A DNA stretch of 64,000 nucleotides from Siderastrea radians. Lineage: Eukaryota > Cnidaria > Anthozoa > Scleractinia > Rhizangiidae. The notes beneath the pieces are model-generated. The model saw nothing but the letters and a program-made list of their open reading frames with translations, did no database searches and had not been told where the DNA came from. A program made the translations under genes and the position numbers. The DNA is taken from contig OZ024887.1 of NCBI GenBank assembly GCA_964017195.1, positions 8,134,032 through 8,198,031 on the forward strand, written 5' to 3'. Of the stretch, positions 4,721 to 52,318 are shown piece after piece (the stretch's first letter is position 1; each line of letters starts with the position of its first letter).

Positions 4721-6122
4721 TGAACCTCTCTGTGCGACCACTTCTCGTAACTGATCACCTCCCGTCCTCCCGGGGCAGGGGAAGGGAGAGAAGGAAACTT
4801 CCTTCTCTCCCTTCCCCTCCCTCGTCACGCACTTTTTTACGCTCGCCCCAATTTTCGCGCGGCTAAAAAACGAAAAATGCCTCGAACGTGCGGAAAACCT
4901 TACGGAAACGCTTGCTACGCAGGCTATTTGACTCTCTGGAGTCTGGGTAATTGTCGAGAGTCGAGAGTCGAGAGTACCAAGTCGAGAGTCGAGACTAACA
5001 TGTCGAGAGTCGAGACTCATTAGTCGAGAGTCTGAGAGTCGATAATTTATCGATCTGCCAAGCTAATCGATAAAAATCGATAACTCGATAAATGTATTGT
5101 TTTATGTATTTTGGAGATCTGTCACCACTCCTCATTGTCGACAACCGAGATTACAAATAAAATAAAAATTACAATGTTGTAACAATCTGCTAGAAGGATG
5201 CAATAAGAAGGTGACCCGACGTTTATTTGATTATTCTTTTGGAATAAACCCAAGCGAGCTTGATCTTTAGAAAGGGTTATTATTATTATTATTCTTTTTT
5301 TTTGGGGGGGGGGGGAACTGACAAAAGCTGTAGGGTGCAATTGATACGTCTTGACTTTGCGATTTGAATACGCGAAGTTTAAGACTCGTCTACTTTTCTT
5401 CGGACCAAATCGTCCAATAACCTTTGTATAAGTATTAACAATTACCTAGACTCGCATATGATAACGGGAGGCGTCTAGAAATGCTACTTCTGCAGTTATA
5501 CAAAGTGACAGCCCAAATAAAACACGACTGCCGCAGGTCGGAAAACATTTGTAACCATGCGTGCACCGTAATGTTGTAACGCAACGCCATCGCGCTAAAA
5601 ATAGTGCGGCAAATATAAACCAGAACCGGATGAAATAGAATGTGAAAAGGTGAAAGGTATTGTATAACCCACGTTTTCAGAGGCCGAACAAAGAAAGAAT
5701 TTGGTAATTCTTCAGCTTAAGTTGTCGAATGTCACAATGTTATGAACAAGTGTAATAAAGAAAGGAAGAAAACTGGGTAGGAAAGGAAGAAAATCAAAGG
5801 TATATAGACTGTCAACTTATCACAACATTTATAGATTTATCGATTTTTATCGATTAGTTTGTCAGATCGATAATCTATCATTTTTTTATCGATTAGTTTG
5901 GCAGATCGATAAATTATCGACTCTTAGGTTTTCATAGACTCTCGACTAATGAGTCTCGACTCTCGACATGTTAGTCTCGACTCTCGACTTGGTACTCTCG
6001 ACTCTCGACACTCGACAATTATCCAGACTCGACTCTCTGTGGTCTCACCTCTCATAAGCGACCACCTCCTGTAAAGGACCACTTAGACTTGGCATTTTGG
6101 GTGGTCGCCCACAGGAGGTTCA
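4721..6122. mobile_element. Foldback element, 1.4 kb, with TCGAGAGTCGAGA-repeat arms
   Basis: Ends are TGAACCTC...GCGACCAC at 4721 and the inverse at 6099-6122. Inside, arms at about 4940-5092 and 5830-6030 are inverted copies built of tandem GTCGAGA units followed by AATTTATCGATCTGCCAA and ATCGATAAAAATCGATAA. The centre (5093-5830) is unique sequence with a TTA microsatellite and a T/G run at 5275-5316. No coding capacity. ACACAG is shared by both flanks, but a clean target duplication is not seen. Confidence 0.75.
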
Positions 6123-10428: not shown

Positions 10429-13400
10429 TTACAGTACGTACTTAGCTGCGGTGTGACAGTAGCTCGGGTCCAGTCCTGGTCGTCCTTCAATTGCTGTTGA
10501 ACACTGAAAGTAAAAACGCTTGGTTACTAGTAATCCTGTTATTGTTTTGAAACTACGGATAAAACTCTAAACTGTGAAAGCTTTTGAGCTTCACTTTTCT
10601 GTGGTGCAGTTTATTATACTCGACAATGTGGTGTTTTTGGAGTCTGTGGATGAAATCCAATAAAATGAAAAACAATTCAACTGAAAGCTAGAGAGCGGTA
10701 CTGTCCAGTGACGATCTGTTCAATACGCTTTACAAAGGTGGTGTGTAAAGGGTCTACACAAAAAACAAAATTAAAAAAAAGCTCTCCAGAAATACTTTTA
10801 ATTGAGACTGTTAGTTTTATAGTTTTTAGGTTTTCCAAACAAATTGAAGCTGTGTGCTCTTGGGTGAAAATTTACGAATATACAATCAGTGCATAACGTA
10901 CCAAAAGCTTAGCAACTCAGGGCATTAAACTGACAACAAACTACTTCTTACCCTTGTTTCTATGTCAGTCCAGCTGGAGTGACTTTCATCATCTACAGAA
11001 TCGGACGCTCGACGCTTCCTGTTGCGAAACAAACAAGAATAATTAGAGACGAAACAACTGGAAAAAAAATTGATGCCTCCCGGGATTCAAAAGTCTGGCT
11101 AAAACATAAATTTCAACGGAGTTGTTGATTCCGTTTGGAGACTTCAACCGACAACACAACACGTTTTGTAGTTTAGGCAAAACTGCAGAAGATAAAGAAA
11201 ACGATGGTGACGCTCGCTCTGTATGAAAAACTGAAAGAAGATCGTATACAGTCTCAAGCTTATCTTTTCGTTCAGGCTTTCCAGAACGTTTGAAATTTTC
11301 TGTCGCTTAACGCCACGGTCAACGGCATTACTTCCACCCAAGCTACACTCCCGTCACATTTACATATTCCACTGACTATACTAACCTTCCAGGACTTGTA
11401 AGTTCGTTGGATCTTGTTTTCAAAGTTTCAACTTCTGTGAACTGAATAGCGTGACCTCCTCCAACCGTTTTGAAAACATCACCCTGCAGTTAATATCACA
11501 GGAATAAATATTCATGGACACTCTGTTTTAAGAGGCTAGGCAAAAAATGTTGTCTCGAAAAAATGCTCAAGTTTAGAAACGCTTTACGAACTCCCAAACA
11601 TTGCTATCCTGTCAAACATTAGCAAGGTTGCTACACATCAGGATCCCGGTAATTCACAAAACAAAGGAAAAGTTATGGGCCGGTGTATCATGGTTGGTTG
11701 AGATGTCTAACATTTCACAGTCTTCTGAGTCAAGACTACTATGTCTAAACCTTAGGCGCCTTGGAATTTTGCTTAGAAAATGGACTTGATGGTGCATGCG
11801 CTTCTCTTCCAAGTCATCATTTGTCAGATTCTTCTTCTGCTGCTACTGGTCCAGTAACGAACTCAAGATGAACAAATTCGCTTTTTACCAAACGCACTTG
11901 AATGTATATACGGTAAATACTGGAGCCAGTTTCACGGCATATGCAACATCGAGATTAACAAGGCATCGAAAATACAAGAGGCAAAGGGGAAAAGTATTTT
12001 TTTGAAAAAAAAAAAAACAAAAAAAAAAAAACAAAAACGTCATTCACTACAGTATCTCACCCGACACCGGAACACCATCGTGTGTTTGATACAAACTATT
12101 AAACAAAGTGAAGGAATATAAACGCCACAATCAAAATAAATCAAGCTTTGAACTCACTTTGATCAGCTTTGTCTCGATTTCCCCGGCAGAGTCTTCCTCT
12201 TGGTGGGCCAACACATAATTTGTGGCCTGTAAAAATAAAAATTACAATAAAAATTACCGTGTTCACTTAGGAACATAACAAAAATGATAAGTGTCTCAGC
12301 CTTGATACATAAAAAGAAATATCTCTTTAGATCAACTCACGTTAGTTTCTTTGAAGTCTTTCCCGTCAGGTCTACAGACTGTTTTCTTGTTCCTTAGCGA
12401 TGGCTTAAGAACGGTATCTGATAAAGTGTAAATAATACGTCAGCGTAAACATGAGGTGGGATCCCATCAAACACATGTATGTTAGATACTGCTTTTTATT
12501 AGAGCTAGTCATTTCAAAGATAACGAGTATGAACAAAGTGCTCGTCTAAGCCTAAGGGACATAAAAGAACTGCAGCATTGTTTGGGGTAATATTTTGTTC
12601 AGTCTTTTACTTATTCCGGTTTGAAAAAAAAGCAAAATTTGCGGAACGTCTGTTCCAAAAAGAACACAATTGTGCTTATTCTGAGTCCTTCCACTTATTC
12701 GGTTCTTAGGAGCAGAGTGGACAAGATTCCAAAAACAGGAGCGCGTTACTCGAAAGCCGCGAAAAATGTTCGGCCAAGAAAAGCCACTTGTAAAAATACG
12801 AACAACTCATTCTACAAAGCCGTTATTTTAACATATCTGTAAAGATAAGAAATATTTAACTTCTAGCAAAGTTTGATGCTTAGAAATGTCTTTGTTTACA
12901 AGATACAGTGTGAGTTATCCAGTCGTGCCCGAAATCGTCCCGAAAAGTTTCTGGGCTTTCGAAAAACGCACGCCAGGGGGCCGTTTCTCGAAAGCCCCGA
13001 AAAGTCATTTGTAAAAATATGAACCACTCATTCTCCAAAGAAATGTTAAACGTATAGAAAAGTTTCATGCTTAGAAACGTCTTTGTTTTCAAGATACATA
13101 GTGACTTGTGCCCGTCTTCGGCCTGAAACGTTTCAGGGCTTTCGAGAAACGCACGCCTGGCAGGTCCGAAAAAAGGACTAGTTCACGTGTTCGTCACACG
13201 ATACGGTCCGTGAGCCAGACTGCAAAATTTGGGCTTTCGGTATCATCCGGGGTGAATATGTTTAATGGTGTTTTTTGAAAAGGTATGCTATTGTAGAGTT
13301 GTAAAATCCATGATAGCAATGGATCAGTGGTAGCTCCCGCGTAGTAACGTTGTTTATTTGCCCCCCCCCCCCCCTGCTGAAACATAACTGACCTATATTT

Positions 13401-16400
13401 TAAGTACAAATGTAACCAACAATAAATGCTTTTTAGAAGCAATAAAATGCATTTTAAAGATACAATTATACTTATAAGAGTTGACATCACGTGTGGCGTC
13501 GTAATATATGCCATGTCTGGGAACTCTGTGTTGCTTGATGCATCCGCCATTTTGAAAAAGGCAGATTTTGTTCAGGTACGTGTTTAAAGTAATAGATATC
13601 TATCAAGTGCATAAATATAAGCTATTTCATAAAGTATAACTGCGTTATAGTTATTTGTACGCCCTTTGTTTGTCCATGGATCACTTTTACAAACTTTCTC
13701 TTTGTTTGCGAAACGAGCATGAAGCAGACGATATAGCTGAGGTACAACACAAGAGATACAGTAAAACAGAATCTTTATGAATCTAGAGTACAAACTAATG
13801 TAGTAATACAATCAATTTCTTTCATGGTAATCGATATTTGGAAATATTTCCCATCTTTTATCAAAAAACTCTTATTATGTTTGCATTTTCTGAACAAATA
13901 ATACGTTATCCGCTGTCAACTCAGAAGAAGAAATGAAGTAATTTTCCTTTATGCTAAATTAGTCTTATGCTAAACTGGCTTCATTGTTTTCTTTTTGATT
14001 ACTCGCCTGTTATCTATTCAGAAATTAAATTGTGCGGGGAGCTAACCAGAAAAAACAATCCAATTAATTTAGCTCCCCAGCTCGCACTTAATTTATTTCC
14101 ACTTTATGTTTTGGAATTAGCCTTTTAGCTTCATCTCAAGTTTGAAAAATACAATCGATTATTAATTGGTCAATTGTGAGCTATTACGGAGCGCTATATG
14201 AATATTCTCTAAGTTCCTAGTGCATCTGTAACTCAATAGATACACAGTTAAATTTAAGCCGATTCTTTCACACTGATTAGTTCATTGCAAGGTGCAAATC
14301 AGTTGGATTGCATTAATACTACTACTATTTTCACGTTTATGCGAAAAGCACTATTTTGTTTAAGAATAAAAGTCGACTACAGAAAATTACCGCTCTTTTT
14401 TGTGTGAAATCATTTTAATAGCAAAATTTGGAGGAATTTAAAAATTGGTATCGTCTGTTATCTGATGTAGTATTGAAATTAAATAATTATAGACTTATCA
14501 CAACAGATTTGGGAAAAAGTGAAAAAAAAAAGGATGCTGAAATCAGCATCCATAAGAATCTCACTGCTTTTATCGGTGATATTGTTTACTGTACTGTTGA
14601 AATTAAACATTACATTTATTCATGTAAATTCTCAATTGACTGAACTTGTTTTTTGTATTCAGACTGAATGGAAAAGGACAAGCACCAGTGTATAATACAC
14701 TATGCTGCATGTTATGACAAGGAGGACGAACATCTTGTGTCCCCAAAGGACATCAGCTCTTGGTCGGCACTGCTGGAAGCAGCGAAAGTTCGAAATCATC
14801 AGCCAGTTTTGGATGTCGCCAAAACTGTTGACGAAAATCACATACCAAACATCGTATACCACCGAAAATGTAGAAGCCTGTTTACTATGAAAAGAGACTT
14901 AGAAACTATTAAGCGTAAAAGAGCGGAGACAGTTGACGAAGAATCCAGTGAAGACACTACCGCAAAAAGGCTGTGTAGAAGAACATCCACAGAGGCGAGA
15001 GTGTATGAGCCTGTATGCATTTTCTGTAATAAGGTTAAATTCATGAAAAATCCGAAGTCAAGAGAGAAGCTCATTCAAGCTGTACAGCTGAGGGCAGATC
15101 ATACACTTCGTCAGTGTGCAATATTAAATGAAGATGCAAGAATTATTGCTATAACTAGCAGAGACATAGTGGCCGCAGAAGCCCATTACCACGCTTCATG
15201 TTATAAAAGTTACACTAACATTAAAACAAAGGAACATGATCATTTGGATGGTAAAGAAGTGGAGAATACGACAGAGATAACCGGCACGCTTTTATATGAA
15301 GTAGCTGAAGTAGGAGCATACGCACAACTTTACCATTACATCAGAAACGAAGTAATCCCAAATAAGATGGTCGTACCAGTTGCCCAGCTTACCGAGAAAC
15401 TGGAAACGTTCATGTCCTGCAAGGGTGAAGTTCTAAAGACTGCCACGAAGAAGAACATCCGTAGAAGGCTTGAATCAGAACTTGGAGATTCTGTTCACAT
15501 TTTTGCAAACGACTCAGGAAAACTGCTGTTAGTTCCTGATAGCTTATCCTTTAAGGATGTTGTCCTTTATAACGAGAATCTCCGTAAAGAGCTAGCAATC
15601 TGGAAGGTGAAGCTAACTGATGCCAACAAGATAACAGACCAAGCTTCATCACAGATCAGAGAAGCCATAAGAAGGGATATGACACCTACTCCCTGGCCAT
15701 ACCACCCATCTGATCTCTCGAATGCCGTGAATATGCCAACTCAACTGCATCGTTTTCTAGTTGGACTTCTTACCGGAAATCCTGAGAATGAAAACCCGTC
15801 AGAGAGAGTGTCAAATCTTGTCCAGTCATTTGGTCAAGACCTGATATATGCGGTTACTTGTGGACAGCATAAATCTCCCAAGCATGTACTCCTTCCTTAT
15901 GCTGTGAAAACATTAACCGGAAACACAGAGATAATCAAGGCACTTAACAAGTTTGGCCATGGGATGTCATACACTCAGCTTGAGGAAAATGACACCGCTC
16001 TGTGTTTACAAAAGCTGGCATCAGGTCTGAATGAGAGGGTAGTACTTCCTGCCTCGATAAAGTCACATGTCTTTACAACCCTTGCCTGGGACAATATAGA
16101 CAGAATTGAAGAGACTCTGTCAGGGAAAGGTACATCGCATCGCGTCAACGGAATCGCTGTGCAACCTAAAGTCTTTGGTCCTGACCCACCGCCAGATGAT
16201 CTACCGCGCATTGACAAGCTGAAACAGAGGACTTTGAGCACAGAACATCAATCCCAACTTGACGTCTATGTTGCTGGCTCTCGTGTGGGACCACATCCTC
16301 TCAAAACGAAGGACGACTATGTTTGTGAAGCCAACAAAGCTGCACGAAGTGCGCAACAGGAAAATATGCTATGGATCCTTGCTAGACTAGCCAATTCGGA

Positions 16401-19400
16401 AGACCAAAAGGTACCAAGTTGGACCGGATTCAACATCCAAACAAGGGATCAAGTTCAAGTAACACCAGATGTTGTGCAGTATCTTCCGACAATAAATGCC
16501 CCAGCGACAGAATTATCAACAGTGTTTGAGATCCTTAACCAATCAGAGGAAATCAGAAAGAAACTGTGTTTACCAGCAATTGTCGTTGTCATGGATCAAG
16601 CACTTTACGCGAAAGCAGCCGAAATTGCATGGAAGCAAGACCAGTTTTCGAACATTGTTTTGAGAATGGGAACATTTCATACAATTTGCGTTGCTTTGTC
16701 TATCCTTGGGAAACGATTTGGAGATAGTGGTTTGAAGGACATCTTCATTGAATCGCAGATAGTTGCTGAGGGCTCAATTAGTGGTGTCATTGATGGCAAG
16801 CATTACAACCGTGGTGTGAGGGCGCACAAGTACCTGTATGAAGCACTGATGAGGTTAGCATGGGCGGAGTTCATGCGGTGGCTTGAGACCGGTGATCCTG
16901 ATCATCACATCACAGTGGTGTCCTTTCTTGAGCAGGTGGATACATTTGCAAGTAACTTGAAGCAAGAGGGCTTTGATCAGCTGTTGCAAAGCCAAGTTCT
17001 ACCTCAAGTGATGACTATGTGGAAAGAGTTCCTGAATTACCTTCGTCATAATAACGGGGAACTGTCGGCATTCTGGATGTCGTACGTGGATATGGTCGAA
17101 GGTATACTGCTTGGTCTGTTGCGGGCATCTCGTGAAGGTGACTGGGATTTACATCTTCATTCCGTAAGAATGATGATCCCCTGGTGTTTTGCCTATGATA
17201 AGGTGAATTATGCACGATATCTCACACCATATTTTGCTCAGATGACAAATCTCGATCAGACGAATCCTGAAGTGCAGAGGGCGTTCAAGACAGGCAGTTT
17301 TTCCGTACAGTTGTCCAGCAACAATCCCTTTGGTCGGATCCCAGTAGACCAGACGACTGAGGTCACAGTGAATAAAGATACCCAGAATCCTGGTGGAACA
17401 ACCCGCTTTAGCTTGAAACCTGCAACTGTGCAGCGCTACTACCTTACAGCGGAGTACCGGAGTACATTTCTTGGACAGCTTCGAAGCATGGTACAAGGAT
17501 CCGACCCAGAAACTCAGCATACGGAGCTTCAACGATCAAGAATAAAGAAAGATGAGCAGGCAGTTTCATCCATAGTTGACCTCATCCAAGGTTGGGTCAA
17601 TCCTTTCTCCGAAAGTCAAGACCTGATCAGCATTTCCACTGCAAAGAAAGCTCCCAGAGAGGTTGCCACAGACCTGAAGATAGCACACGAGGTTGGTGAG
17701 AAGTGCTACACAACCTTCAAGGAAGAGAGGATGGAGAAGATCCCTCAAGTCAAGAAATTCCACGACCCTCTGAAGACAAGTAAACTGAAGACGTTCAGCG
17801 ACATGAACAAGAAGAAGCAAGTGAAGACCAATGAACGTTCGATCATTTTAAAGGCTGACAGGTCGCTGTTTGGCAGAATCATAGTGATTGCACAAGAGCG
17901 AAGCTTACAGATGGATTACATCCTGTCACATCCGCTTGGACCACTACCCTGGGCATTATCATCTGCTGATGGCCTTCTGCGAAAGACAAACAAGGCTTCG
18001 CTGGCATCGTTGCTGCAGAAGAACGTACAAGCCACTGAGGAAGTCCCTGCAAACTCTTCTGCAGTAATTGATGGGATGTCCCTGGTGCAAAGAGTAAAGG
18101 GAGATCAATTGACATTTGGAGATGTCGCCATTATTGTCCTATCCACGGCATTGAAAGGAGTGCGGTGTAACAGAATAGATGTCGTGTTTGACACCTACAA
18201 AGAACTATCTATCAAGAACAGTGAGCGGCTTCTACGAGGTGAAGAGTCAGGGCACCAGCTATGCAACATCACTAGCACTCAGATAGTTAGGCAGTGGAGG
18301 AATTTCCTGACAAGAGTGACCAATAAGACGAGTCTTATTACCTTTATCGTCAGTGAGTGGAGGAAGGAAGCATGCAGAGAGAAGTTGGAGGAGAAAGTGC
18401 TGTATGCCAATGTTGATGACACATGCTACAGAATCACATCAGAAGGTAGTGAGGAGGTTCCGGCACTACAGTGTCAACAAGAAGAGGCCGACGGACGCCT
18501 ACTGCTTCACGCTACTCACGCAGCTAATGAGGGCTACAATTCTGTTCTGGTCTGTTCAGAGGACACTGATGTATTTATTTTGTCCTTGGCATTTAGCAAT
18601 GAGATAGGAGCTTCTCTGTTCTTGAAATCTGGAAGTCGCACGCGGACAAAGGTAGTTGACATCACAAAAGTTGCTGCCTCGCTTGGTTCCAAAGTGTGCA
18701 AAGGTGTTCTCGGGATGCATGCGTTCACTGGATGCGACACTGTGAGTGCTTTTGCAGGAAGGGGAAAGGCCCAAGCGTTGAAGTTACTAAAGAAGAACAC
18801 AAGAAGCCAAGAAGCGTTAACAGAGCTAGGGCAAGAGTGGAACCTGCCTCCTGAATTGATGGATAAGTTAGAGGAATTCACGTGTCTCCTCTACTCTACT
18901 AACACAGTCACCACAAAAGTTAATGATCTGAGGTACCAGCTGTTTTGTTCAAGAAGAGGGGAGATAGAAAGCCACCAGCTTCCTCCTTGCAGAGACTGCC
19001 TTGTGAAGCACGCAAAGAGAGCAAACTATCAGGTAGCCATATGGAAACGGTGTCTGCAGCAAGACCCACAGGTGCCGAGTCCTGTTGGACGGGGATGGAA
19101 AACGGAGCATGAATATGGTGTTGCCAAGTTAGTTGTAGACTGGATGGATTTAAAACCAGCACCAGAGGCCATCCTAGACCTCCTAGCATGTAACTGCACT
19201 AGAAAATGCGTCTCCCCTAACTGTGTCTGTATCACAAATGGACTAAGATGCACTGATATGTGCAGACTTACAGAATGTGACAACCAAGCTTCTCTTCAGG
19301 AGGTTCAGAGCACCGACGAAGATGATGAGCACGGAGAGGACAGTGACGAGGAGTATTAGAATACACGTTTACGCGGGCTCGTACATGTCAAGAATAACAC

Positions 19401-22400
19401 GCACTTTCATTTAGTTTCAGTTCAAACCAAATACGTACAGTGCGATCAGTTTCTAGTAATTATCGAAAGGATAAATGAAGGATTTAGGTCACGTGACCCA
19501 TTTGTTTTAATAGTTTGATTTATAGCTACACTAAAGGAGAATCAGAAACAATGTCAATAACATTGAAAAGAGAAACTTAAATAAACACGGCTTGGATTGT
19601 CTGTTTTTGCAATCTGGCACTTCAATCAGTGTAATATAGTAGTACGGACCCTTTTTAAGGCTCTGGTCACGTGACCTATGAAATGAACATCATGTATCAA
19701 GAAAGGTACAATTTTTGTTAAATGTTACTGTTATGTCGGTGTTTTGTAGATTTTGGTGGACAATAGACATTTATATTTGTCAAATCAGCTCCAGCCTCGT
19801 TTTCATGCCTAAGCCATACTTAAAAGAGAGCTGTTGGTCACGTGACCTATGAAATGAACATCATGTAATACGAAATATTCAATTTTCGTTAAATGTTTTG
19901 TTTCTGTCGGTGTTTTGTAGATTTTGGTGGACAATAGACATTTATATTAGTCAAATCAGCTTCAGCCTCGTTTTCATGCCTAAGCCTTAAAGAGCGCTGT
20001 TATCCACAAGCTACCATCGAATCGTTGCTATCATGCTTTTTTCCATTATTTGTGGTCTAAACTACCAGAAAATCACCATAAACCTTATTCACCTTAGATG
20101 ATACCCACCAACCCTACTGGCTCACGGACTAATATCACACTTACAAAAATAAAACAAGAAAGGATCTTCTTTTGGATAAAAGTATATCAACTGCAGCAGC
20201 GCCTACTGCGTACCTGTGTCCAAGAGTGTGGGGGGTTTATGCTCTATCCAGCAATCTGATGATTTGGATCGTCTGTGACGGGATTTAATGGGAGGCTGAA
20301 ATATAACACAGATTCTCTTAAACTACACAGAACATGTAAATCTTGAAGAACGTGGCACTTCAGTCTTCTCAGCATGCAGTGAACTTACAACCAGATGAAC
20401 CCCTGAACCAGGCGTACTTTTCTTACATCTTTGTTACAAATACAACGTGAATTTATTACCTTTCTCGCCACGGGCGGTGGAGACTTGGATCTAGTCAAAG
20501 TCGCTGCTTTGGCCTGGGCGCGAGTCACAGGTCTGTCAGTTGTCTTCATGTTCTACAGAAAGAAAATATTTCAACACACGTTATAGTTCACCGTTCACCA
20601 CTAAATTTTGCCCTAGTCTGATAATTTGGTTTAATTTGATCACGTGACGTGAAAGTGTTCAGTGAGTGTTCATCTGCCTAGTTACACTTGCAGGCGAGCG
20701 GGTCTACGTGGCCAAATTACCTTAAACATCCATACCTTGAGCGATGTAATGCAAATTAAATTTTTCACTCGTGGATGAATTGCTAGAATGTGAACATTTT
20801 TCCTTTTTTTTGTTATATTCAACAATTTTGCACGGTACAATTGGAATTTTTTATTTTTTTACGCTTGAGCAATGTTAACTGTTGGAAAATAAAGGTTGTT
20901 ATATACCTGTACAATTTCCTTGAGTTGCCTCAGTTTTTCATCCTTTTGCCACATTTTTGCCTGCATTTCCATCTCTTTGTCCTTGACGCGTTTCGACTAA
21001 ACAAAAGCAAATCCGGCATAGTCTAAGTTAACAACGTTGGAAGCTCCAGAGGACAACACTAAATGACTATGGCTAAATGTTTAATACACGCCGGACTCAC
21101 GTGTATTTGAGAAAAAACAAGTTTGACCAGGGTTGTCCACAACTTTTCAAGTAGCTGGAAAAATTTCTAAGTAGCCGGATAGTGATTATTGAGCGCCAAA
21201 GGCAATCCCTTCTAGGGGGGTCTGGGGCAATGCGCCCCCCCAGGAAATTTTTACATTTTAAGTCCCCAGAAACGGAATTTCCTTGATTCTGAGCACAAAT
21301 TTCCAATAATGTCAGTTCCAAATTAAAAGTAATCGTAACTTTTCAATTTTATTTGTATAAACTCATGCCTTCAGTGGTTATCTACAAGTAATTCCCAGAA
21401 CTCAACGTAATGAACTAACAATTTGTCTTTAAAAATATATATATCACAAAAGTAGCCGGCACAAACGACCCAAGTAGCCGGTTAATGCTGCCGGCAACCC
21501 GCTGTTAGGGACAAGCCTGAGTTTCTAAGGGAAGAAACTTAACTTGAACAAAACATGGTTTAACTTCAAATTTTGAATCCTTTGGTATCTATCGAAAATG
21601 TTGTCCTTTTCCCCAATCTTTTTTTCCCCTAAGTTTCATTTGCTGATTTTTTTTTTACCCTTCGGTAATTAACCTTTCCTCATCTTTAACGCCCGTTAAC
21701 CCATGCGATTTTCGATGCAACCATTGTCGCACTTTTCAATGTAATTTTTGTCGCGCTCGAGCTCGCGATAAAAATCGCAAGTGTAAACTAGCGGCGATTT
21801 TAGTGCGAATTCTGTGCGATTTGTCGCCGTGATATCGCAGTGGTTTCGAACATGTTGGAAACTTGATGCAACTTGGCGGCGATTATTGGGAAATTGCAAG
21901 AAATATCCCACTCGAATCGCACAGAAATCGCCGCTAGTGTACACTTGCGACAAAAGTTGCATTGGAGAGCGCCACAAAAATTGCATCAAAAATCGCGCGT
22001 GTAAACGGGCCTTTAGCGCATAATACGGTCACCCTTAATGTGTTTTGCACTTAAAGGGGCATAGTCACGGTATTTTAGTTCACTTTAAAAATAAAAAATA
22101 TGTCCTCACATCAATGAACGCCCACAAATAATGGTCTAGTTTTGTTACCAAAGACTATATTACTTAAACTCACCGTCGAAAAATATTGCATACATAATTT
22201 AGGCAAAGATCAGTGGAAAGTTAACAATTTTACTTCAGAAATAAATGCAAGTTGCAGTTGAACCTTTTAATTTCTTACTTCTACCGGCGAATATCCAATA
22301 CTTTTCAGTGCTCATAAACGGTCAACTTTCTAAAGGGTGCCGTTTTGACGCTCTGCGTGATTTGCGTGACACGCGACTCGCTTTACTTTGTTTAATTTGT

Positions 22401-34400: not shown

Positions 34401-37400
34401 TTTGTTTCTTTCACTCTTTCCTTCTCTTTTTTCATCAACCAACTTATATGCACTCGTGAAAATGTGTAATAAAAAAGTATTTAATGAGGATGGTATTGCA
34501 TAATATTATTATGAATTCCTCTTCAACTGCACAAAAAGTGTACCTTTGGAGAAATACCATTTTCAGCATTTCCTTGGTTTTCTCTTAGAATCTCCATGCA
34601 ATTTCTTAAGGTCATCAAGGATGCATTGATATTGCCTATGAAGAAAGAAAAACAAGCAACAACAAAGTCAGAAGGGGCTACTGTAAAATTTTATCAAGTG
34701 CTCTATTTGTAACAACAGCTATTAAGATACCTTGTGTAGTCACTTATGTAGGATTATTTAGCGTATCCACTATGTGTACCTACAATCTTGGACAGAACAA
34801 GTTGGGACAAATGCATCTGTGCACAAACTTCTCAACTAAATCCCTACATGATTTGAAAACATAGACAACTTAGTCGCAGAAATGCTTCCCCTGCCCCTTC
34901 AACCTGCCAGGCTTTTTTGTTCACAAAGTAACGTTGATAAGGGGACGTGGGAGAAGAATTGTTCCTGTAAGTGATTTTTCTGGTCAAAGTTATCACTCAT
35001 TCTGAAGTGTGGGTCTCGATCAACAGTTTTATCTAAAAGTGTACTTCTATATGGTCTTATAGGATTGTCTAATTATCTCTTCATAACATCACTGTATATT
35101 CAGTCAGATTACAATTAAAATTACCTGCTTCTCTTAGTCTGTCTCCACCAGCTTTTGTTCGGTTTGTTCTCTCTGATCCTGCTAAATCACACAAGGAAAG
35201 GACGCTCACTGCAATTTGATCCTTATCCTGTTAACGAAAAACATGCATAAGGATAACCAAAGCTTGTACTAAGGACTAACTGCTCAGCAGTAGTTTACAG
35301 CAGTTGAATCACTTGAGCTTTCCAAACTTAAAATAGCCCAATCTTTTATCTTAAGGACTGAGTAAATTACATCACAGTTGAAATTCAGGAAACACTGTCT
35401 AACAAAATCAAACAGCCTGAAGCCTTTGGAAATTCAACTAACTAACCAGTCCAAAAATCTGGTGCTAAGTTTATGTCTTTGCAGTTGCTTTAGCAGTAGG
35501 CTATATTAATTTAGACAAAGTACCTGCAAGACCTCCTCCCCATCAGGGTCTAAGGGGGCTTGTACTAATTTGACGGCAAACACACTGTGGCTTCGGCTGG
35601 ACTCGCGATTCAGTAATGTGTTAGCAACACGCCTTTTCTTCTGGCCTTTCCAAAAGATGCTGTAAGCTTCTTCTGTACTTTTGACTTCAACTTCTGTTAC
35701 ACCACTTACATACATGTTGCGATTATTATCCTCTCTTAGATTCTTTGACGCTGGAGGTCTGTGAAGATTTAAAGGACATGATGCATACTTGTCTGCCACT
35801 GCTTTTGCAGTAAATCATAAATACAGAATAGCACGACACCACCTTCGCTTCAGGCATGTCAAATCTCGATATTGTTTTGATTTTTTTCATAAATTCAAAA
35901 TTTTTAAGTTAAAACTTACTTTGGGCAGATGGGATCCACTGGAGTCTCATCAAGAAGATCATAAATATAGTTGTTATAAATTTCAAAATATGAAACAAAA
36001 ACTGCATAGCTATTGTCCTCATCAACCTGGAAATAAAATACAGTATAGGAGAATTTATTAAGCTTTACCTGCAGTATGCAAATCCCACTTTGTAAAGTAA
36101 TAAATTAAATCTTTCAACTTACATCACTGACAAGTCCTGTTTCAGGAACTCTTATCACATCAGAAAAGTCATCAGCATTCCTGGAAAAAAGGAATCACTC
36201 AAGTTATTGTGTCACAAATTAGTGCCATTTAAAATGATCACATAATTACCCTGGCTCCAGAGGCCTGTTGAATATAAATAATAAGCAGCGGGTAATCAGC
36301 TGCATCAAGGTGTTTGGAAGTAGACAAGACAGTTTGGTAGGATATATGATATATATGACTGCATGGAAATGAGATTCTAAGTATTTGCAACCAGAGGTTA
36401 TTTTTTCTATTGATGATGCAACGCATCTTGTTGCCATGGATGTTGCAGCTTTACTGCTTCACATAAAGTATCTAAAGCCCTGGTCAAATGATCAAACATT
36501 TTCATTCAACATCATATTTGTCACACAATTAATGAAAAGTGGCTGAATGGAAAGCAAGGTTTGACCAAATGTCGGATAAAATGGCGCTCAAAAATAGGTT
36601 CACATCACCCTAATTCCATCTCTTATTTCCACTCGCACAAGCCTTGTTGGCAGAGGTGGCTAAACTACCAAACATTTGTTCATAAGACAAAATGTTAGGA
36701 GAAAAAGTTTCATGTAGATCAAACATGGAAAGCCATTTACACGTAAATGCAAAGTTGAGAGAGGCGGCCAAACAGTGAAACATGTTCTTCCAGCATGATG
36801 TTGGACGAAAATGTTTAATTGTATAGCCAGGGCTTAAAGAAAAAATACAGGTAACCTAAGGCACCCAGGGTATCAGATAATGGGCACTGCTGCTTTTCTG
36901 TCAGCAGAGAGTTTCAGTTTTAATGAGGACACTGGTTCTTGTTCCTGTATACATGGCCACACAAAAGCAAAAGGAGGGAATGCTTGTCGTCTTACATAAG
37001 GAGGCAGTCATCTAACAGATTACAAGGATAAAATTTGGTTAGATAGGGCACACCATAAGAAGCCAGCAGATAATATCACTAATCAGATTCTATCTGGGAA
37101 TTCTCCAGGGAAAAGAAAGAGGAAGGCAGTAAGAGCTATACAAGGATTAGGATGAGCTGGAATGACCTACATGTACACTGTAGTTGGAAAGAAAGCACAG
37201 ATTTGAGTGCGCTGGCATGGCATTGTTGATGGCCTATGCTCATTACAGGTTATTTGGCCTAAGAAAGACAGACACCATATTTAAGGTACCTGTTTCTTGA
37301 CCCTGGTGTGGGTGGTGGAGCCTGCAGAACTGCCTCTCTGTCTCTTCTTTCTTTCTCCAGCTTGGCCTCATGTTCACTTTGTATTTCAATGCCATTTGCT

Positions 37401-40400
37401 TTATCTGGTTTGAAGACCTGACAAGAAGTAATGAGGCAAATGCATCAAACAATGCATTAAATATGGCATAATGCTGCTGATAAATATCAACTTTATCAAC
37501 TGAAAATGCCAAATGATGTTAACTATTCCAGAACTGTACCTTACAATGAAATTTTTTTTAAATAAACTAATTAATTAATTTTTATCAAATATCTTACCAT
37601 CTACCTTGCTAGGAATTTTGTCAGTCACATTTTGTCTACTATTGTCCCAGACAGCCAGATGGGACTTTTGTTAAGCCACGGTAAGTTTTGCAGTGGTTCA
37701 CAAACTGATAGTTTTGATGCTACAGTTTAGCTACATGTAAGCTTGCAGAACAGAAGAGCTTGACAACAAGCTTCCAGTAATAAGCCTAGCCTTAATTCCT
37801 TACATAAATGGCCCTGTACATGTTGTGAGACCAGTTGGAACTTACATATTTGGCTGACTGAAGCTCCCCAATTGAGTTGAAGATAACATCTAAACATCGA
37901 GGAAGCAAGCCACTGTCACTGGGTGTCCCTGTCATGGTGTGTGTCTTTCCAGACCCAGTGATACCATATGCAAATATCAGGCCTACGAGAAATACATTGA
38001 TGGAGTCAGACTATGTGCATGAACTTTAAAGTAGCCTGAGAAAACAGCTGATGTTTCACTAGGTTGCCATTTGAACCCTCGCAAAATGATGTCTGAGTAA
38101 CGAGCGCAGAAATTCCATACTGATGACGTACACTACCCAGATCTTGGCAGTGCTTCTGATTGGTTGTGCCACGAGGGAATTTTCTTTCAACCAATCAGAA
38201 GCACTACCGAGATCTAGGTAGTTCACGTCATCAGTATGGAATTTCTGCGCTCGTTACTCAGACGTCGTTTTGCAAGGGCTCAAGTGGCGACCCCGCGAAA
38301 CGTCGGCTGTTTTCTCAGGCTACTTTACTCCATATTTTAAATAACTGGTACATGTAAATTATAATTTGGATTAAATGCCAGAGGCTACTGGTATAAATTT
38401 TTAACAACATGTATGTAAGGTATTTATGCACCTTCCCTTCAGTAAATTGATATATACTGTTGTGAATACAGCCTGTCGCAAAAATGTTTGCTTTATTTTA
38501 GCGTTTTGTTACTTTACTCAAAAAGACAAACAAGTTATTTAGAAAACTGCGGAAATTAGTATCTAAGCCTCAAGTAACAAACTACGAGTGTCCAAAATAA
38601 GATTAGCGGTGTGTAATGAATAGGACTATTTAGCTGATACACGTAGCAGGAAATGTAACCATTGTAAGGAAATTAGTGGTCAGCCGCAGATCAATGTGAG
38701 CCGCGTAGAATAATGTTGTGATCTTGCCAAGTTATGTAGCCCAACGGATTTACGTAGTTAGGCGTGGGCATCCGTAGTCCGTAAAATGTGGTAAACTTGT
38801 AATTTTAAGTTAGTGTCGATAGTAGAACCGATTGTGTAACATTGATTGTGAGTGGAATAAAGAAAAAGAAAGGAAAGCATACAGTCCAAGTTGATTGAAC
38901 CAGCCGTTGCAGAGTTCTCCTGGTTGAGTCGTGGAGATTTCTGCGAAACAGCCTTGCATAACCCAATGTAACTCAGTCAATAATGATTTTATTGTTGCTA
39001 TGACCAATTTACACCTTCAAGGAGCATCAAAAGTGTTGAGATATTCCTATACTTTTAGCATACCTACAAGCAATTGCAAAAAGACTTAAGTCACTCGCTA
39101 TATTTCCAGTCAATTCAGACATTCTTACAGTCAATACACATTTACCCCCCTTCCCCCTTATCAATGTTGTTATGGATTTAGTTATGATTTTCAAAGTAAC
39201 AAGCAACAACATTGAAAGGGGGAGGGGGTTCAGAAATGTATTAAAGTTTTCCATTTGTTTTCAAGAGTGCATTTTCAGTTGGTAGTACAATTTTTTAGGA
39301 GAATGTCTCAACAATTTTGCAATTGCCTGTAGCTTTAAAATCCCTTTTCCCCCAACATGGATGATGCATAAATTATAAGAATATTACTTGTAACCGACAA
39401 CGTGTAGATGTATGTTCTGAGAGTGGCTTACATTAAAGCTACCCTTGCTGTTTTTGGTCAATTTGTATTCAGTGGTGTAAGCTTTAGTTATAATGTTTTC
39501 CATGACTGGTACTCACCATTTTTTCCATGAATTACATCATCCACCAGTGGCATTGCTACATTGTCAAAAAGCAATTTCTGGGTTGTCTTTTCATCATAGA
39601 CCTTCTTAAATGTATGCTGTGTCTGTAAAAAAAATTAAAGAACGTGCACTGTTTTGACAAACTATAGGTCACATGTAAAGAATATCCCACAAAGTCAAGT
39701 CGCACATGAGCTCATGGTGTGCCGACTTAAGGTGATTCCCTTCAATTGCATTGCGCATCCTTTCTGCGCATCCTTTCTGCGCATCATTTTTTGCGCGATT
39801 AGCGCATGCATCTTCGGACCTTGATAGGTTTTCTATGAAAGCTGAGCAGTTCAGAGAAATAACAGGTCATTTTCTCCTAAAGAAGCTCAGTGACCCCCAT
39901 TTGTAATACATAAATTCAAATGGCACACGGTTGAGTACAATATATTGCAATTTCAAGAAAAGTTAAAAATTCTGCTTTGAGATATTTTTATTTAAATGCC
40001 GAAAAGAACACGTTTTAGGTACAGAAGGGAATGTACGCACGTGGCAAATTCTTTAATTTTTTTCATATCCTTAATTTTTGTACAACTTAAATTGTATACA
40101 ATGCAAGATACTACGATTTTCAGTTGAGTAAGGCATGAGAGAAGTTTGGTCACAAAGTTTTAACGTTCAAGTTACCATGTTGTCAAGGGCAACTTGCTCC
40201 GTTTCCAAAAGAGACTGCATGAATGATCACGTCTGACAATTTCTCGCACGCCTCAAAAACGGCCGTTGGGAATTTGAAGTGGCGGCAGCTCAATTCTTAT
40301 CACATGGCTTTAGAAAAATTGTCATGTGATTCGTGTTGTGAGACCCGCTGATCGCTGTCAAAAAGCGATGGCTTTCATTCAGTGTGAAGTCCAGCAACGA

Positions 40401-50858: not shown

Positions 50859-52318
50859 TGTACAGCGCCGCAAATGATCCCGAGACCGCAAATGATCCCC
50901 GACCGCAAATGATCCCCAAATAGGACCGCAAATGATTCCAGAACCGCAAGTGATCCCCACAGCGGACCGCAAATGATCCCGCTAAATAATAGGAATAGAG
51001 TGGATAACAGAACGGCGATGACATTGTAAAGGCGTGGACTCTGGAATGGCGTGGACAGAGGCATGGCGATGTCTACGGAATAATGCGGATACTGGAGCTT
51101 TTGTCTTTATTATTCCTCAAAGCACGTTTTAGCCCCATAAATCATGACTTAGATATTTTATTTCGAGGCCAAAAAAAAATTAAATAAATAAATAAAATGT
51201 TACTAGGTAATGTAGTCCTATAAATTCGCAATTGTTTTTGTACCTTTGGCTTAGCATGCAGGTTGTAAATATACCTGGTTTAATTTGTGTATTTTCTTTA
51301 CGATCTTTTAACAGAATAACAGAATGCTTTCTTATACATGTAAAAGTAGTACAAGCGCTAGTCACGAGAAAATTTGCAACCGCTCATGTTAACTGATTTT
51401 ACCAGCCAGCTACAAACATATATATTTCTTTATCTCGAGCGGGTTAACTTTTCCTTTCTAGAGCAATGCTCAGTGGAAAAATCAATGGGTTCACTTCAAC
51501 ACTCAAATTTACAATATAGAATACTTTTCTGATTTCTCAGGTGGGTATAACCAGCTGGATGCAACAAGTTATGCACATTTGACAGGTTGCGTGACAACTC
51601 AAATCGTTACCTATAAAAGGCATCGGCTGCCAAGGATAATACCGGCGGGATTTCCGCCACACGCACAAAAGACAAGATCCAAACCTAGCTCGGTTTTCTT
51701 ATCACTTTCTTTTTCAGGTCTTTGTCACCTCCACCAGCATTAACACCAACAAAAAACGCCAATGAAAGGACGAGAGTATTCAAATTGGAGACCAGTTTAG
51801 CAATTTCTACAAGCGCGATCGCAAGCGAACAGGACACTGCCTTAATACATGGTCTAGTGACCTTCTCACACATTGTTTAGTGACCTTTGATTTCAAAGCC
51901 AGACGTCAATCACCGTGCCCTGGAAACCCGTGGCTTTCTCGACTGTCGCGGTCTCGGTCGACCATCGGTTGGTCATCCCTGCGATCTGTGTATACATGTG
52001 AATTTTAAATATATTTTTTAAACATAATCATGTTTGCTTTCTATGCCATTGTGGTCTAGAGCCTTTAAAATGTTTTACTTCACTGATCTCGATAAACAAC
52101 AAATTTTTCTGTTTTTTGATTTATTTTGGTCAGTACTTTCACCTTCCGGTATTTTCACCTTCACTGAAACTCCACGCCATTCCAATTTTTTTCAGCGGGA
52201 TCATTTGCGGTCCGCTGTGGGGATCATTTGTGGTCCTGGGATCATTTGCGGTCCAATTTGGGGATCATTTGCGGTCGGGGATCATTTGCGGTCTCGGGAT
52301 CATTTGCGGCGCTGTACA
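50859..52318. mobile_element. Foldback element, 1.46 kb, arms of tandem GACCGCAAATGATCCC units
   Basis: Left arm 50859-50985 and right arm 52195-52318 are inverted. Each begins TGTACAGCGCCGCAAATGATC and consists of about six degenerate 16-20 bp units. The spacer (50986-52194) shows no transposase. GTGT on both sides is a weak candidate duplication. Confidence 0.82.

Follow-up and report, generated by a model that had tools for sequence, protein, structure and literature searches.

A 1,563-codon frame beside a coral kinesin gene: a probable AcademX-type DNA transposon whose transposase carries a predicted FEN1/EXO1/XPG-like nuclease

Introduction

What is a single open reading frame of 1,563 codons doing on the strand opposite a kinesin gene in the coral Siderastrea radians: does it belong to the host or to a mobile element? 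The frame lies in a stretch of 64,000 nucleotides (contig OZ024887.1, positions 8,134,032 to 8,198,031 of assembly GCA_964017195.1), hereafter the window, and a preliminary description made from the letters alone had offered either a new class of transposon-encoded enzyme or a domesticated one. We propose that the frame is very probably the transposase gene of a complete AcademX-type DNA transposon, a match made by description (Table 1). The transposon-encoded part of the earlier proposal stands; in the features comparable by description the element fits an already named kind, and inverted ends, a target-site duplication and sibling copies speak against domestication.

Table 1. Features of the transposon and its protein, in window coordinates
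Feature	Position	Strand	Basis or remark
Complete DNA transposon, AcademX-type (probable), 6,928 bp	13204..20131	+	sibling similarity limits, inverted ends, target duplication
Left target-site duplication, ATA	13201..13203	.	
Right target-site duplication, ATA	20132..20134	.	
Left terminal inverted repeat, reads CGGTCCGTGAGCCAG	13204..13218	+	siblings have TAGTCCGTGAGCCAG
Right terminal inverted repeat, TAGTCCGTGAGCCAG (read on - strand)	20117..20131	-	
Transposase gene (probable), single open frame, 1,563 aa	14668..19359	+	
N-terminal Cys/His module 1, C8-x2-H11 ... H65-x2-C68	14689..14871	+	conservation; putative zinc binding
N-terminal Cys/His module 2, C117-x2-C120 ... H175-x2-C178	15016..15201	+	conservation; putative zinc binding
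Predicted DDE transposase domain, RNase H-like core with helical insertion, residues 430-940	15955..17487	+	model, fold matches, conservation
Putative triad D475; D643; E898	16090-16092; 16594-16596; 17359-17361	+	conserved in 141-row alignment
Predicted FEN1/EXO1/XPG-like nuclease domain, residues 1108-1472	17989..19083	+	predicted structure and seven conserved acids
C-terminal CXC (tesmin/TSO1-like) cysteine module, residues 1508-1537	19189..19278	+	8 conserved Cys
171-bp tandem duplication, 3' part of element	19664..19986	+	

Results

The frame is the only stop-to-stop frame of at least 200 residues in the window, and a stop codon sits immediately 5' of its ATG; in 20 dinucleotide-shuffled versions of the window no stop-free run exceeds 227 codons, and the earlier claim of an intact gene is borne out. 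Overlooked at that time were the ends of the element, which lie 1.5 kb before the start of the frame and 0.8 kb past its end. The limits of the window copy were set against the ends of its siblings, similarity to two of which (L009 and L010) spans 13206-20131 and stops there. The inverted ends are exact over 13 bp in the window copy and over 15 bp in these two siblings, and weakly similar over about 150 bp. L009 and L010 are flanked by duplications of their own, TCA and TAA respectively; in a third sibling, L011, the ends are lost or changed. All three differ from the window copy by 2.2-2.4%. A search with the left end returned 11 places including the window's own, the nearest being L029 and L030, whose left ends are 98-99% identical to that of the window copy. 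About 0.7 kb including the gene start is missing from L029 and about 0.5 kb inside the gene from L030 (3 kb compared); both are thus internally deleted relative to the window copy, to which the aligned pieces of L029 are 96-99% alike. Both also contain about 45 bp that are absent from the window copy.

A copy-number and flank check, which the preliminary description had suggested for related cnidarian genomes, was run in the coral's own assembly (805 Mb) and found related copies with different target duplications. The protein search scored 30 of 2,395 candidates, so its counts are lower bounds: at least 33 match rows at at least 30 places. A sister family with about 50% protein identity to the window's accounts, by score, for at least 24 full-length rows, 18 of the 24 free of in-frame stops in the matched part, and a third family for at least two (L027 and L028). 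We examined 20 copies, namely 15 of the 24 sister rows (L012-L026), L027 and L028, and L009-L011 of the window's own family. DNA identity to L014 is 99.4-99.9% in the other 14 sister copies, and likeness among them breaks off at the sharp ends TAGTCCATGGGCC...GGCCCATGGACTA. With L022 set aside for its different left end (it and L011 have no recognised end pair), 13 of 14 copies, all but L016, have a 3-bp duplication at their flanks, against 0/14 for each of three control offsets; duplications of 4, 5, 6 and 8 bp match in 0/14. An ATG-to-stop frame of 1,593-1,595 residues is retained in 11 of the 14 (not in L013, L016 and L019). From its sequences, the sister family looks recently mobile in this genome. 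Ends like those of the sister family also bound the two copies of the third family, which have the duplications TTT and ATT and, each, a longest ATG frame of 1,401 residues.

Among the 120 of 154 matches listed, the hosts of named relatives include corals and an anemone (Oculina, Porites, Actinostola), Branchiostoma, Nymphon, Mercenaria, Nucella and the fishes Epinephelus and Eleginops. Conservation was read from a 141-row alignment of 139 of 140 relatives (one 2,025-residue protein was excluded), the window protein and one sister-family protein, counting the rows with a letter at each position.

The central domain, formerly left unclassified, is present and is now predicted to be a DDE transposase domain. 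As had been suggested, it was compared with RNase H folds: the model of residues 430-1035 (predicted local distance difference test, pLDDT, 89.5; predicted template modelling score, pTM, 0.91) has an RNase H-like core, and a VIA second look matched it, at moderate Z, to the P element, Hermes, ISCth4 and integrase folds, with 9-11% identity to the first two. D475, D643 and E898 are conserved, E898 being assigned to the triad from aligned ranges. The family DUF6589 is matched across this region by 3 of 29 relatives (best E 1.9e-5), although two of the relatives, P0068 and P0073, score under its curated cut-off when scanned singly; no mention of DUF6589 was found in the literature searched. A search from a DUF6589-bearing relative gave no helicase family in the Pfam assignments of the 120 of 203 matches listed.

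Over residues 1108-1472 the nuclease model takes the EXO1/FEN1/XPG-type fold that the preliminary description had suspected, with 8-18% identity over the rows shown; the top Foldseek rows are Xrn1, Rat1, Rad2 and FEN1 (best E 0.004). The seven acids read earlier in FEN1/XPG order are indeed there and are conserved across the relatives: D1135 in 125 of 125 rows, D1175 in 127/127, E1273 in 117/118, D1275 in 116/117, D1299 in 114/115 (the lowest), D1301 in 116/116 and D1357 in 113/113. Predicted fold and acid order together place the domain in the FEN1/XPG superfamily. The Pfam TCR match to the CXC module is weak (E 0.32 in the window protein, 0.0031 in the relative P0135). BLAST does not support the two N-terminal Cys/His modules as a duplication; they have in common the motif layout alone.

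The kinesin gene has motor-domain exons on the minus strand at 37795-38010 (Pfam E 7e-14) and 35509-35814 (Pfam E 6e-18). Their top PDB match is 5x3e, titled 'Kinesin-like protein', which is presumably ZEN-4, the KIF23 orthologue, and sequence likeness presumably points the same way. The transposase frame had been described as nested antisense in KIF23; it does lie on the opposite strand to the kinesin gene, either within an intron or past its 3' end, and the KIF23 label depends on this presumed identity and likeness. An exon-like stretch at 20460-20552 (minus strand), with acceptor- and donor-like borders, lies just to the right of the element, in a frame without Pfam match. Immediately to the left, at 12736-13161 and outside the transposon, imperfect repeats occur in both direct and inverted orientation. 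Elsewhere in the window, short tandem repeats (GGGATCATTTGCGGTC type) at 50868-50980 recur inverted at 52197-52309, about 1.44 kb end to end, and resemble a non-autonomous DNA element whose ends are rich in repeats. Oppositely oriented GTCGAGA-type tandem repeats at 4953-5042 and 5937-6009, about 1.06 kb end to end, are possibly another short element. No RNA family was found in the window at the gathering threshold.

Discussion

The published accounts, as excerpted, count Academ among the DDD/E superfamilies (PMC9587614), give AcademX duplications of 3 or 4 bp and AcademH duplications of 9 or 10 bp, linked to a nuclease and a helicase respectively (PMC10045372), and report that Academ elements in bivalves average 5,565 bp (PMC10294476). 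The duplications at the window copy, L009, L010, 13 of 14 sister copies, L027 and L028 all fall in the AcademX range, and terminal inverted repeats are found in the window copy, its siblings and the sister and third families. The VIA fold matches and the conserved D475, D643 and E898 point to a DDD/E transposase; the predicted EXO1/FEN1/XPG fold and its conserved acids point to an encoded nuclease, of the XPG type that we presume AcademX to have. The length is similar, and no difference emerges in the features comparable by description.

Several points weigh against this reading. The assignment was made by description, and the XPG type of the AcademX nuclease is itself presumed. Pfam, NCBIfam and PDB sequence searches with the window protein gave nothing above cut-off. 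Foldseek alone returned no match below E 0.001 for either model; because its top rows for the central model were unrelated proteins (best E 0.45), the DDE assignment rests on the VIA second look, with its moderate Z. Cutting by both domains is predicted from folds and conserved acids. The window copy itself may no longer be mobile, because its left end begins with CG in place of the TA of L009, L010, L029 and L030.

How such a protein might work can be outlined tentatively. Binding to chromatin or to the ends of the element would fall to the Cys/His and CXC modules. The DDE domain would nick the 3' ends of the element and join them, staggered by 3 nt, to the target DNA; the fused 5' nuclease, in the least certain step, would cut the other strand or trim the 5' donor flaps left by a 3'-only nick, thereby freeing the element from its old site. 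One polypeptide would then hold both strand-cleaving enzymes: its P/hAT-like DDE domain would act on the 3' strand, and its EXO1/FEN1-like nuclease on the 5' strand or flap. It would be a counterpart of TnsB plus TnsA that arose independently in eukaryotes, and the sister family may still move; we give this scheme clearly less than an even chance. Not far short of even is an AcademX element whose nuclease serves another step, by opening hairpin ends, by repair after insertion, or as a part dispensable for movement. Hermes, a hAT element among the nearest fold matches of the DDE domain, forms hairpins on flanking DNA. That a helicase replaces the nuclease in AcademH, with a duplication length that differs and that the author ties to the enzyme (excerpt of PMC10045372), also favours another step. 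Against it, the seven acids are retained almost without exception among the relatives, so that nuclease activity is probably needed. In addition, 5' ends and flaps are the substrates of EXO1/FEN1-type enzymes, which suits flap trimming better.

It is unlikely that the element belongs to another or unnamed superfamily and gained its XPG-like nuclease independently of Academ. The comparison by description leaves room for this, the DDE fold is closest to P and hAT transposases, and Harbinger and EnSpm also make 3-bp duplications according to excerpted sources, which give EnSpm termini as CAC..GTG and Zisupton/KDZ duplications as 8 bp. However, the P/hAT likeness is remote, and duplication length and nuclease jointly match the AcademX description as excerpted. 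The termini here are TAG..CTA, unlike EnSpm/CACTA. Zisupton/KDZ was rejected on the 8-bp duplications, found in none of the 14 sister copies. PIF/Harbinger elements have a Harbinger-type DDE protein and often a second, Myb/SANT protein; the window has one long frame, in which the Pfam search found no Myb/SANT family.

Does the intact frame imply a host function? The private codon changes of the window copy (17 replacement, 13 silent, no stops, no indels) are fewer than those of its siblings, among which L009 and L010 have 2 and 5 stops and several indels, and L011 has indels but no stop over the compared codons. Approximate omega is 0.40-0.51 for the window copy and similar, 0.46-0.59, for the visibly broken L010. 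Intactness need not mean selection after insertion, because the chance of escaping stops is appreciable (P ~0.25), the replacement bias is non-significant (P 0.07 against neutrality, P 0.30 against the siblings) and the broken L010 is similarly biased. A host gene of domesticated origin that sits within or next to the kinesin gene and is retained for a cellular job would suit the intact frame, the few private changes and the low omega, yet it is very improbable, given those same comparisons, the near-identical but internally deleted L029, and a frame that is enclosed by inverted ends and a target duplication and has siblings so close, where a domesticated transposase would be a single locus without transposon ends or duplications.

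In the literature searched, as excerpted, Academ transposons are described from sequence, and no experimental test of one was found. Three families in this genome have clean ends, and an activity assay is within reach because the sister family has at least 24 copies, with the 15 examined near-identical and 11 of 14 keeping a full-length frame. The models supply specific residues in two predicted active sites with which to ask why a transposase carries a FEN1-like nuclease.

Among known systems, AcademH belongs to the same superfamily as AcademX and differs by a helicase in place of the nuclease and by 9 or 10 bp duplications (excerpt of PMC10045372). Neither is seen in the window element, whose duplication is 3 bp and whose protein has no helicase family among its Pfam matches listed up to E 10. 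The Drosophila P element and Hermes share with the window protein the RNase H-like core and a helical insertion before the last acid, and differ in sequence (9-11% identity to its DDE domain); P and hAT elements make 8-bp duplications and are not known to carry an XPG nuclease. EXO1, FEN1 and XPG share the nuclease fold and the order of the seven acids, including an E-x-D placed as in EXO1; they differ at 8-18% identity, and the window nuclease is fused to a transposase. The closest analogy, and only an analogy, for the proposed two-nuclease division of labour is Tn7, in which TnsB and TnsA divide such work; TnsA has a restriction-enzyme-like fold and is a separate protein, unlike the fusion in the window.
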